DNA of 64,000 nt from positions 27,766,001-27,830,000 of the forward strand of contig NC_079882.1 in the NCBI RefSeq assembly GCF_029227915.1, in the 5' to 3' direction. Below, piece after piece: positions 42,203 through 54,200 of this stretch. Within the stretch, counting starts at the first letter, position 1. Each line of letters opens with the position of its first letter. The translations under genes were made by a program, and so were the position numbers. The stretch is from Hydractinia symbiolongicarpus. Lineage: Eukaryota > Cnidaria > Hydrozoa > Anthoathecata > Hydractiniidae. The notes under the pieces are model-generated. The model was not told the origin of the DNA. It did no database searches and saw only the letters and a program-made list of their open reading frames with translations.

Positions 42203-45200
42203 TTATTTGCACATTAAAAATCTAAAGAATTTCACGAAGAAACTTGCGATGCCCACTCGAAGTCTTCGAAACTTGACAGAGAATGGTTCTTTCGGTTTAT
42301 TTTTGAGATCCTCTTTGTATTCCAGAATTTTTTCCAACGACACACCCAGCTCACTTGGTTTTACATACTTAAAATTGACGCCAAACTTTTTCGACATTTT
42401 TGTTCGTATCTCCAGCAACTCTTTCCCATGTTTGTAATTTAGCTTTTCAATTTTGTCCTCAACTCGACACATCATTTCCTCGAATTCCTTTGCAGTCTGC
42501 AATGCCATGATTCTCAAATCAGTATGCCATAACAGATTTCGTTCTACGAGAATTATTTTCAGGAACAAATTTCATTCAAGTTCATTCAGGAATACTTGTC
42601 ATAGAACAATGTAAACATTTAATACTTTAAATATATTATGCTTTAAGCCTAACAAGGTTGCCTTAACCCTTTTCTCACATCTCTCGACCGTTAATTATTA
42701 TAGAATGAGATTTTGTGTCAATTTTTGCAAATGATTTTAAATTTAAAAGTTTATATATACTAAGACCTTTTGAATTCTGGACAAGTGGTGTTTCAAATTT
42801 GTTAACTTTTTAATATTTGTAAACTGTACAACGTTTCAATATCATGCCAATTTTAATTTTACAGCTTCACAAAATATATATATGACGTTACCTCTTTCTG
42901 TATGAATTTTGTTCTTTTCAATGTTTGCTCGTCTTTTTCTGAATCCCTCATATATTATACCAAGCATAATAAATACCGCCCACATAATTAAAACTATTTT
43001 AAGTGTATTTTGGTACAGCGGCGCCTGAAAACTTATTAAGTCAACATTTTCTTCCGTAGATGGAAGACTCGTAGAAGTGGAGGAATTTTTACCATTAGCT
43101 GCTTTTGCTCTTGCCTGCGCCAACTCCTAAAAATAAATTAGGGTTAATAAATTAATAATTTATTATTTGCAACGCCTAATTAGAATCAATTATTTTTCAT
43201 ACTTTAACTGATCAGCAATAAAACTATAGAATCGATTGGCAATTACCTTTAAAAGATTTGAAATGGCCTTAGACGTTATATCCGTATTTGCTTTTGCAAA
43301 TTTTGTCCCACAAACTTTTAACTTCTCCATCTCACCAAATGCAGCTACACCAAAATCAGACGGTACATTAAAAGCTTTGTTGACACCCAACCCGTAATCA
43401 GAGATGTTGCTTTTTAATACCTCAGCAACATATCGATCAAGCAATGCATATTTTACACTTTTGTTTTTCAATGGTCCAAAAACTTCTTCGTATGAGTAAT
43501 ATGTTTTGTCTAACGAAAAAAAATCAAGCATAAATGGTACAGACAGCTATAAATTAGCGTGATAAGTTTGGCTAACCTAACCACAATGATTTCTAATAGC
43601 ATTTGACAGTCAGAGGTTCAATTAAAAATGTAAAAATAAGCGCATTAATGATTTTAAACTAATGTTAAGATTGTTAAGTATCTTTAAATTAATTGCTATG
43701 TTCTCAAAATTAGAGCTCGCTTATTTTAATTATCATATAAATTGGCTAAAACTTGAAATTATATAGTCATAACACAGATAAAAGGGCTTACTTTTATCAA
43801 ACTTTTTTATATTTTTCTTTCCATATGTGTACTCTGCAGAGCCATACAATGCTAACACCTATATAAATAGCGAAATGTTGCGTGCACGGCGAATAAATGT
43901 AAAAACAAAATATGGAGAAAAAGGCACGGCAAAATCCGCAACACCAAACAATATCAACAACAACAACAACGACGACGAAGTTGTAGTTGCGCATTTAACA
44001 GCAACTTTTTTTAAAAATATACCATTGTCTTACAATTCGTGAGAGTTTAAACAAAATCTAAAACCCGGTAAATGTAGAAGTTATTAAACCTTGTCATCTG
44101 GAAGTTTTTGTTTCATTGAATTCATAGCAGCCACAGACAAAGCTGACGAAAGAGTACCGGTAACAATTCCAGTTAACACCAAACCAAGAAGTGTCCAAAA
44201 CACTATATATATCCGCCCTGACGTTGTTTCAGGTATCTTGTCACCGTATCTATAAAGTTTACTGAACTTTTACAAAGAGCCAGGGTTTAAACCTACTTTG
44301 GACTTTATTTCAAGATTTAAAATTTATTTGAAGTTATTTATTGCGTTACAATATCGTTAGGTCAGTTACCTTTCTCAGCCTACTTATCTGAGCCTTAAAG
44401 TTCCCTGGGAAAAAGAGTTACTGTAAGCCTTATTTTCCTATCAGAGCATTACTTATAAAAACGTAAAAGGTATTTTTCCTTTAAAATTATTAGAAAATTT
44501 ATTGTTTGGAGATCGCAACTTACCCAACAGTAGTGCTGGTCATAATAGCCAAGTATAAACCTTCAAATATACCAGCCAATGATATTCCACGACCTTTGTG
44601 TTCAACTTTTGTTGGTTCCTACGTATAAGTAGTATTCAATAGAGCTTCCTGCTAAATAAATATAAATTACTGCGCAGAAATAGATACTTTGTAGGATATT
44701 CTAACCAAAGATGTAACACCAAGTTAAACAAGCAACTAGTCATGACTATAAACATGCACTTTCACAGATGAAATTTAAATGTGATATACATACACAAAAC
44801 CAAAATATTGCACCAAAAAGCCAGTTTAGCATAAAGTAAAATGCACATATAGGCAAAGTTCCAAATATACCACTAAGTAATCCATCCTCCACTTTTGTAG
44901 CAGCTTGCGCAGGGCTGTCAGGAACTTCCAGAATGATAAATCCTGGACTTGTTGTAGTGGCAATAAGAGAATATTCAGGTGTAAATTTTCCAGTATCCAA
45001 CCTCGGGACTTGCAATGCAGTGCGATTTACCGTAAAATTCTTTATATCACTGAACGAGTCCAAATCAACGCGATTGTAAGAGATGTAAACACTTTGATTG
45101 AATGAAGTGCAATTGTGAGCACATGTCAGCAGCATTTGTTTAGTTAAATCCATTACAATACCTTCTGGACGCAAATTGTTACCTTTTGGATAATCAACAT

Positions 45201-51200: not shown

Positions 51201-54200
51201 GTTTTTCTTTCTTGGACAAAAAACATCCTTCCAGGGTTGCTCTGGGACATCACATACATGATCGTAAACTTTTGTGCCATAACCACATGTAGGGGTGATA
51301 CATGAACTAAGTGTATCTGTGATAAACATTTCTGACCGTTGTCCTAAAGAAAAGTAATTTGCTGCTACTCAAAGCAGATCGTTAGATTGCTTTTAGATTT
51401 ATTTTTACGCAATAGAAAAATACTGATTCCTATATTTAATAAAATATAAAAACTTAGTGCACAGTAAACACCTATTAAATTTTAAACATGCACTTTGCAT
51501 GTTTAAATGTCGCAGTGAAAAAACAATGATGACAATGGCAAAAAAGGACAAACAGTGAGCTTTAGTCAATTTATTTAATTTAAAATGTTTGTGGATTGTA
51601 CTGAAAACCCTAACATTATTTTAAGTACGTTACTTCGGAATGGCTTTGTACAAATAAGGTTTTTTGGGGGAAAATTTAGATATCTAGCTCGGAACTGAAG
51701 CCACACACTAAATATATCTATACGGGATAATTGTATTTTTACCCTATTGCTTGGCCACTTCTTTTTTCTACGAAATATGTTTACACCTTTAAATAATATA
51801 AAAATATGGACAAAAATTCCATCAGTTAAATTGTCATCGTCATTTAATTTGGGCACAAAAAGGGTTTTTGACCTAAAAGTTTCTGTGGAGTATTTTAGAA
51901 CAAATGTGATGACATTAGTATATATTTTTATAATAGCTATATTTCCTGAGGTAAAGCATTTCTACGGAAACCGATAAATCGTAAAAGTCTTCGAAATTCT
52001 CATGTTTTTAGCGTTAATGTTGCTTCTACCAGACACATTATCCCACGACCTGGTTTCAATCGGGTTATTAGCCTGCATAATGCACCACCGTAACGCAGTT
52101 TATTGTACCAAGTTGGTCATATTTGGCACAATTTACTGCCATTGATACTACTTTTAAATTTCTGTGCCACAATAATAATACACTAAAGGTCCACTAAGCC
52201 ACATTATTACTAGATAAAAAGCATTGAAATCACTAAACCATGCTAGCTAGGTATTTTCACTTTATTAAACTAAAATATAAATTAGAAATGAAAGGAGAGA
52301 AAAATTACAAGTAATGTACTAAAACGATTGTTTAAAACATTTTTTGCAGTTATGCTTTTAGAGAAACACATTGTAAAATTGTTATTCTAAAATTATATAT
52401 GAAGGTATTTTTATTCACCAATACACATTATTTACTTATTGATATCTGTAACTTAATACACCAGGTTCTCATACTCGGAGACTATACTATATTTGAAATT
52501 ATTGTTAATAATCTTTCCTAGTAAGAGATTAATAAAGGGACTACGGAACGGCTCCAGTAAGCTCTTCGTCTTTGATTTTTTCTCTATTCTAGCACATTCT
52601 TAGTAATATTATAACCAGACCACTCAATTTGTTTTTATTTCGAATTGTATTGTTTTTCTCACTTAACCCTATTCGGTCGGGGGGGGGGGGGGGGGGGAGG
52701 GGCGGATTCCGCCCCCCCCCTGACGGTTTTTTTTTAATAACTCCTGATTGCTTTCTTATATCGCTATGATACTTACTGAGTTTCAACATTTATCTATTAG
52801 ACACCTGCATGCTAAATTTTTAGGTGCCATACCTGTCAGAGGCTTTGATATTGGCCATTACTCGAAACTACCCCTAAAATCTCTATGAAATCCTTATAAT
52901 GGGGAAAATATAGTAACTTCTGTTAGAATTATCCTTAGAACTTGAAACTTGCAACACAACTTTGTTTCATCAAGAAAAATCATTTTGAATAATTTTGACA
53001 CGTGACTAATCCGATTTCCCGATTTTGTCGGATTTTACCCGAAAATCGGAAAAAAACGGATTTTCGGGCAATTTTTGGAAATTTTTTATTTGATCCATGT
53101 AAAAACCGGAAAATATGTTAAAAAAAAATTTATTTAGCTTTCAGAAACTTTAAACAGAATGTAAAAATTCGCTCTAGAACAAAAGTAATTATATTTTAAG
53201 CAGATAGTGGTATTTTTAACAATTTTCAAGCTTCTGATGACGTCACAGGAAATGTGCTAACGCAAGCAAAAATTTATTGCCGCCAATTTGTTCCTTTTAT
53301 GACGTACTATAAGTGTGCCAAATTTAATTCAATTTGAACAATCCTATGAAAAGTTATTGAGGGGGGGGGCGGAATCCGCTCCCCCCTCCCCCCCCCCCAG
53401 TCATAGTATGTTCGAAAAACCCCGGACCGAATAGGGTTAAGCGCATAACACAATTTAATTGAAGCACAAGTGAAGTGAATTAAGCATTTTATTACTTATT
53501 CCAAGTACTAATTCGCCATCACCGTTTTTAATAAAGAGTAAGAATCGGACGTTATTATATTCGAATCATCAATTTTGCAATAAAACTATTATTATTCATT
53601 TGATTCTTGAAATGATGTGATAAAAGATATGTGATAAAGGCAGCTATATGGAAATCATACACTTTCTATTGTGAAGTGTTATGTACCTGCTTTAAATTAG
53701 GTTATATGCGACATTCCTTTCATTAATCAACTAGTATCCCAGAACTTTGTGCTTCAGAGAACCTCTCCTACGATTCTTCATAGCTATAATTCCATCGATA
53801 GTCTTGCATAAGCTTGTGCGACACAACAGAAAGTAAAGACAGATCTCTGCCCCATTGTTTAATACTGTTATTTATAGCCTTTTCTTTTCTAACAACAAGT
53901 TCTTCTTCGAAAATCTTACATAATTGTCTTCCTTGTTGGATCTTTAAGAAAAAGCTAGGTTCAGAATCAACAACATTGCGTTAAACTTTAGCAACTTTTT
54001 GTACTTTCCTCGTTGGCTATTTTTACAGCAATGTCATACGTTTTAGTGTTTGTTTTGATACTGATGAATATTACTACCATTATGTATTGCGAAGCTTGAT
54101 AATTGAAAATTTTCTTTTCAAATGAAACAAAACTTTTATGAAACGAACGTAAGTATTCACGGTTAAATTATTCTGGGGGAGACTGGCTCTGAGTTCAAAG

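Follow-up and report, generated by a model that had tools for sequence, protein, structure and literature searches.

A predicted glutamate-receptor-like channel with a potassium-type filter and an adhesion-type ectodomain in Hydractinia

The window analysed here is an AT-rich stretch of 64,000 nucleotides (nt) from the hydrozoan cnidarian Hydractinia symbiolongicarpus (contig NC_079882.1, positions 27,766,001 to 27,830,000; all coordinates below are those of the window). Its minus strand carries a gene for a putative channel with a K+-type pore, two flanking stretches (S1 and S2) resembling glutamate-receptor binding lobes and a long adhesion-type ectodomain; the gene runs from 51343 to 42203 in 18 exons and extends upstream to at least 58987. 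Joined by hand, the 18 exons gave one frame of 1429 amino acids (aa), an 888-aa ectodomain followed by a 541-aa channel part, with the sole stop at the end. AG precedes every exon, GT follows all but the last, and all junctions are phase-consistent, as claimed in the initial annotation, which had read a single exon chain from this DNA, and the architecture is present at these minus-strand coordinates. In tblastn against the window, two Hydractinia symbiolongicarpus proteins, P0004 (LOC130654910, 1733 aa) and P0006 (LOC130654183, 2027 aa), matched each of the 18 exons in sequence, and with such colinear matches to Hydractinia proteins, at 31–95% identity domain by domain, the exon chain is more than a product of chance. 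An hmmsearch profile built on the first 310 residues of P0004, P0006 and a third relative, P0005, revealed an upstream exon for the last part of the N-terminal domain (58826–58987, E 1.6e-6, AG/GT borders), which joins the TSP1-like exon in phase 1 over a 7482-nt intron and brings the chain to 19 exons and 1483 aa without stop or frameshift. The first exons of the gene were not found in the window; a 51-nt stretch at 59198–59248 is a tentative candidate for a further upstream exon by its AG...GT borders and reading frame, without a significant match of its own.

The ectodomain continues with a TSP1-like segment in a phase 1-1 exon of its own (51173–51343), 46–49% identical to P0004, P0005 and P0006. 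The segment reported by the initial annotation is present, and with Pfam TSP_1 at 10.5 bits (E 0.73), below the cut-off of 21.6, it can be called TSP1-like only. The eight FN3 domains placed ahead of the channel were recovered by Pfam as eight fn3 stretches (220.4 bits, E 2.4e-66, above cut-off), each also resting on exon joins and tblastn: domains 1 (50618–50914) and 2 (50241–50534) are single phase 1-1 exons, domains 3 (48483–48785) and 4 (48115–48414) follow, domains 5 (46853–47256; exons 47256–47079 and 46983–46853) and 6 (46202–46773; exons 46773–46530 and 46350–46202) each hold one inner phase-2 intron, and domain 7 (45789–46079, 95% identical to P0006) is followed by domain 8 (45334–45642), which a 76-nt phase-1 intron separates from the channel. 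Because phase-1 introns flank the TSP1-like exon and each of the FN3 units, and also lie where the eighth domain meets S1, the adhesion-type arm was probably joined to the channel through exon shuffling. Pfam gave no match to the ANF-receptor amino-terminal domain (ATD) of ionotropic glutamate receptors (iGluRs), either in the 888-aa ectodomain (E up to 10) or in full-length P0004, P0005 and P0006 (E up to 1), in keeping with the proposal that FN3 and TSP1-like modules stand in place of the ATD. P0004 and P0006 begin with a signal-like hydrophobic start, and the protein database assigns PF28033 to all three relatives; that model was absent from our Pfam scan of them.

The channel part opens with S1, the presumed first half of the binding lobe, together with M1 (44794–45257), recognised by PPY...GIVMDL in the register of a GluR0 profile described below, by hydropathy and by a fold model of a further relative, P0001. 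The pore-helix exon (44524–44618) ends in ...TSTTVG, and the following exon (44090–44249) opens with the filter residues YGD and proceeds into M2; both rest on exon joins, Pfam and the GluR0 profile, the second also on hydropathy. The filter TTVGYGD is thus split by a phase-2 intron, which is why a DNA search for the motif in the unspliced window returned 0 matches. In the spliced chain the TTVGYGD announced by the initial annotation stands in the pore, and Ion_trans_2 reaches 43.9 bits over one domain (cut-off 22.5), compared with 98 bits over two domains for a two-pore K+ channel, P0002. A short 67-nt exon (43792–43858; tblastn and GluR0 profile alignment) starts S2 with VLALYGSAEY... and is needed to complete it, and the main S2 exon (43247–43509; tblastn, GluR0 profile, alignment and S2 shuffles) holds an Asp (chain D1175) that is a candidate acidic ligand-site residue. 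The end of S2, a Ser/Thr-rich linker and M3 followed by FRKRR lie in the next exon (42892–43126; tblastn, hydropathy), and the last (42203–42543; tblastn, helices in the P0001 model) encodes a helical C-terminal tail, taken as cytoplasmic, and the stop codon. The SYTANLAAF gating motif is absent from the pore-lining helix after the filter, where the window has TGIVTGTLSSALSV, only loosely alike.

Hydropathy outlines three hydrophobic regions in the channel part. The chain holds 31 N-glycosylation sequons, eight of them in S1, S2 and the linker and none in the M1–M2 loop or the tail, and basic residues lie in the M1–pore loop (KVEHKGR) and after M3 (FRKRR). Given this placement, an inverted pore of the iGluR kind fits better than the orientation of K+ channels, with S1 and S2 predicted to be extracellular from hydropathy, sequons and charges.

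For a comparison with bacterial GluR0, we scanned the genomes of 84,980 bacterial and archaeal species with the DNA pattern DF[ST]xP[YF]...WxxE...TTVGYGD, which gave at least 117 GluR0-type loci (an open frame with the order of the pattern in 117/117, as the pattern demands), and built a profile from 106 of them, proteins of 320–450 aa. The window channel matched this profile at 84.4 bits in one colinear match (profile positions 101–292) that spans M1 to the acidic S2 position, and at 69.2 bits when the profile was reduced to the transmembrane part; the best domain of P0002 reached 60.5 and 54.8 bits, respectively. Together with the exon chain and the presence of M3, the colinear match over M1, pore, M2 and S2 upholds the predicted order S1-M1-pore-M2-S2-M3. 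When S2 alone was shuffled, the real best-domain score was reached by 4/500 shuffles for the window, 1/300 for P0001, 1/300 for P0004 and 0/300 for P0006; with S1 alone the counts were 11/500, 44/300, 108/300 and 73/300, and these four proteins are close relatives, so that the tests are not independent. S1 aligns in register with the profile at the PPY...GI.MDL motif, with an hmmsearch E-value of 0.013 when five sequences were searched (a weak match, E 0.43, for P0001). In hhalign against a hand-collected set of eight binding-domain rows, the real S2 score was reached by 0/60 shuffles, S1 by 19/60 (over three columns only) and S1S2 by 10/60; against the 106-row profiles S1 was reached by 0/50 and S2 by 4/50. 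Taken together, sequence comparison supports homology of S2 to the GluR0 binding lobe, and that of S1 is suggestive.

Several results weigh against a glutamate-receptor-like core. Summed over both of its domains, P0002 scores 88.1 and 86.2 bits with the full and the transmembrane-only profile versus 86.8 and 69.2 for the window, and since this two-domain K+ channel scores not less than the window, much of the GluR0-profile score reflects a general K+ pore. The families named for a profile check in the initial annotation gave a divided answer: Ion_trans_2 and fn3 lie above their cut-offs, Lig_chan (PF00060) reaches 17.9 bits in the window chain versus a cut-off of 30.8, and S1 plus S2 of three family members, with the pore deleted, matched no relevant Pfam family. 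When PDB sequences were searched with phmmer and with a profile, the best 60 of 263 and the best 60 of 269 matches were all K+ or related cation channels; the pore was the aligned part, and no binding-domain match was among them. The hhalign probabilities were at most 3% throughout, a reversed control outscored S1 and S1S2 in the eight-row set, and of all parts S1 has the weakest sequence support.

Structure prediction and residue conservation add to the comparison. In a 62-row MAFFT alignment including the family rows, the S2 Asp and a family-invariant Arg (chain R974) both fall in columns conserved in at least 90% of rows. An alternative register drawn by eye on EYS leaves no Arg at the S1 ligand position, where MAFFT puts the invariant one, and the fold model has a predicted local distance difference test (pLDDT) of 34–41 around it, so the register of this Arg is uncertain. 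A guided AlphaFold2 model of P0001 gave Foldseek matches to glutamate receptors; there was no iGluR among its best 50 VIA-align matches. An iGluR-type fold is supported, as a prediction, by the GluR0 profile over M1, pore, M2 and S2, the S2 shuffle controls and the guided model. A first AlphaFold2 model built from four sequences (pLDDT 36.7) was not used. The best row of a BFVD fold search, likewise not used as evidence, was E3T502 of Cafeteria roenbergensis virus (E 5.3e-5), a 514-aa 'putative ABC-type amino acid transporter' that might itself be receptor-channel-like.

The same observations bear on a rather unlikely alternative, in which the K+ pore and the adhesion arm are real and S1 and S2 no longer bind a ligand, the channel being gated by adhesion, force or a partner, or being constitutively open. 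The weakness of S1, the poorly modelled stretch around the candidate Arg and an ectodomain far larger than the binding lobes would all fit such a loss. Yet S1 and S2 are 80–94% identical to P0004, P0005 and P0006, equal to the proximal FN3 domains, S2 stays in register with the GluR0 profile, and its acidic residue, which lies in a 90%-conserved column, does not vary among the four aligned family members.

The gene belongs to a real family of several members, which we recovered in three protein searches with about 8000 candidates scored in each (7998, 7993 and 7978). The channel part alone retrieved three proteins, only one of them close: P0001 (Hydractinia symbiolongicarpus LOC130653900, 513 aa) is 65% identical over 97%, and P0002 and P0003 align with just 13% and 18% of the channel query. 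When P0003 was used to look for related loci in genomes of bacteria and archaea, 42 stretches came back, 0 of them confirmed. A search that took the full length as a guide for size gave P0004, P0005 and P0006, each combining FN3 domains and channel, and a query of P0004 from S2 to the tail retrieved only these three and no further species, which, with so few candidates scored, does not speak for absence from Hydra, Clytia or Anthozoa. The window protein differs from every relative found. Across the 541-aa channel part it is 78–79% identical to P0004, P0005 and P0006 and 65–79% when P0001 is included, and ectodomain and channel occur together in three of the four close relatives. P0005 (2036 aa, source tag 'lgn', 11 member sequences) comes from a contig of 6303 nt, of which its coding sequence needs 6108 nt; because so much coding sequence fits in this contig, whereas 19 exons or more make up the gene of the window, the contig should derive from spliced RNA, and one family member thus appears to be transcribed.

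These relatives also bear on the idea that two adjacent genes, one for an FN3 adhesion protein and one for a GluR0-like channel, only seem to be one through compatible intron phases. In favour, the P0001 model is a channel without ectodomain. Against, it begins 14 residues into S1, as would a truncated model; it might otherwise be an ectodomain-less paralogue. Both parts lie in one protein and in the same order in P0004, P0005 and P0006, the P0005 contig is too short for an unspliced gene, and the 76-nt intron that joins them is in phase, so that we regard two genes as very improbable and the claim that the FN3 and channel exons encode one polypeptide as supported. There is good support for one chain in which an N-terminal domain, the TSP1-like segment and the eight FN3 domains are followed by S1, M1, a K+-type pore, M2, S2, M3 and a helical tail; less firmly supported is that S1 and S2 form an external two-lobed ligand-binding domain of the periplasmic-binding-protein type, with the pore inverted as in iGluRs.

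The family members diverge unevenly along their length. Identity between the window and P0006 is 40% for the N-terminal piece, 48% for the TSP1-like exon, 36% and 49% for the first two FN3 domains, 76–95% from the third FN3 domain to M2, 81% for S2, and 46% and 63% for the linker with M3 and for the tail. In the close pair P0004/P0005, too, the four distal modules are the most divergent (82–88% versus 89–99% identity elsewhere). Judged by these identities the distal arm is fast-changing, though linker and tail change as well. FN3 number also varies, with eight domains in the window and P0004 and 11 in P0006: P0005 and P0006 hold three extra domains directly before the one matching the third FN3 domain of the window, absent from the window and P0004, and tblastn detected no remnants of them in the window's 1455-nt intron. 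Should the window copy be a decaying pseudogene of an expressed family, one would expect eroded parts, and the N-terminal piece, the TSP1-like segment and the first FN3 domain are indeed only 31–49% identical to the relatives, with the first exons not found in the window. However, 19 exons with sound borders, 1483 aa free of stops and frameshifts and the 80–94% identity of S1, pore and S2 to P0004, P0005 and P0006 leave decay with very little credence.

The closest known systems are bacterial GluR0 and the rotifer receptor AvGluR1 (Adineta vaga). GluR0-type proteins (Synechocystis GluR0 and the at least 117 loci) share with the window the TTVGYGD between M1 and M2 and the W..E after M1, both demanded by the search pattern, as well as stretches in the S1 and S2 positions flanking the pore and the acidic S2 residue. 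GluR0 has two transmembrane segments only, according to the available text of PMC12332018, whereas the window protein, like P0004 and P0006, has a third one and a charged tail; the five GluR0-type rows inspected end after S2, and the 106 profile members lack a large ectodomain. AvGluR1, compared here by description rather than sequence, is an animal receptor with a TXVGYG filter and the 'same architecture of eukaryotic iGluRs' in the passages available (PMC12332018, PMC12226733, PMC3483616), which mention no FN3 or TSP1-like ectodomain. Canonical animal iGluRs (AMPA, kainate, delta, NMDA) are alike in topology and in the Foldseek matches of the guided P0001 model, but the window has no ANF-type ATD, no SYTANLAAF, Lig_chan below cut-off and a K+-type filter; by its sequence, it is not a canonical animal iGluR. 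The main text of an eLife 2018 survey of metazoan receptors, in the part available, contains none of 'potassium', 'selectivity filter' and 'fibronectin', and the accessible text of a Hydractinia single-cell paper reports glutamate-receptor Gene Ontology terms in one neuron type and lacks 'potassium' and 'fibronectin'. We found no description of this channel with an adhesion arm in open-licence PMC text, which agrees with the initial annotation's remark that it knew of no such family. Relatives already stand in public databases, P0004, P0006 and P0001 as 'uncharacterized protein'.

The filter suggests that the channel is probably K+-selective. GluR0 is described as K+-selective (PMC12332018, available text), and AvGluR1 as selective for K+ over Na+ in the accessible part of a 2025 paper (PMC12226733); excerpts of PMC3483616 describe AvGluR1 as Na+-permeable despite its K+-type motif, and because these papers disagree on a receptor with the same signature, TVGYGD alone does not settle K+ selectivity. 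A ligand-gated channel that also passes Na+ in spite of its TVGYGD, and is thus excitatory rather than inhibitory, would have the Na+-permeable description on its side and the two K+-selective ones against it, and we consider it unlikely.

We put the probability at about 60% that the gene encodes a receptor channel of the GluR0/iGluR kind with three transmembrane segments and an adhesion-type arm, in which closure of S1 and S2 on a ligand opens a K+ pore while the arm anchors the protein. In such a channel the pore would be made by four subunits, S1 and S2 would close on a small ligand and so pull M2 open, and K+ efflux would hyperpolarise the cell; the FN3/TSP1-like arm, at the place of the iGluR ATD, would tether the channel to the matrix or to an adjacent cell, and might also bias gating. 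The initial annotation's reading of an inhibitory, ligand-gated K+ channel that may sense a ligand and a matrix or cell-surface partner is supported in part, namely in its single polypeptide, its K+-type filter and its GluR0/AvGluR1-like topology. In the available text of PMC12332018, modern glutamate receptors are speculated to stem from the fusion of a primitive K+ pore with a glutamate-binding domain, and AvGluR1 is cited as a presumed intermediate in their origin. A receptor family with a K+ signature and several members in Cnidaria would offer a further animal case on whether this filter is ancestral, regained or acquired, and an arm of shuffled exons at the ATD position makes gating of an iGluR-type pore by an adhesion ectodomain testable. 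Hydractinia is a laboratory genus long used in allorecognition research. We tentatively raise the possibility, itself somewhat doubtful, that these proteins are hydrozoan cell-recognition channels, whose fast-diverging distal arm binds matrix or neighbour and whose conserved GluR0-type core, gated or licensed by contact, turns small-ligand binding into a silencing K+ conductance. If so, a single polypeptide would serve adhesion as well as inhibition in an animal receptor, and a K+-type iGluR would have survived among cnidarians.

The window holds other features besides this gene. The 7482-nt intron between the N-terminal and TSP1-like exons contains an AATA array of about 224 copies (57534–58430) and, on the plus strand, opposite to the gene, a reverse-transcriptase fragment (56180–56860; RVT_1, 58.2 bits). 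Also on the plus strand are a 254-aa open frame (27317–28078), whose start looks signal-like by eye and which reaches the cut-off of no Pfam family, and a CENP-B_N DNA-binding domain (8293–8622, 43.6 bits), probably a transposase remnant. A tandem array of a 14-nt unit occupies 40248–40461 (15.3 copies, 96% matches). Next to it, open frames on the minus strand (39233–40071) carry DUF4116 repeats (37.5 and 19.8 bits; cut-off 24.9), a domain common in giant viruses; G+C around them (36–40 kb) is 0.39 versus 0.27–0.34 elsewhere in the window, and this part may be an insertion.

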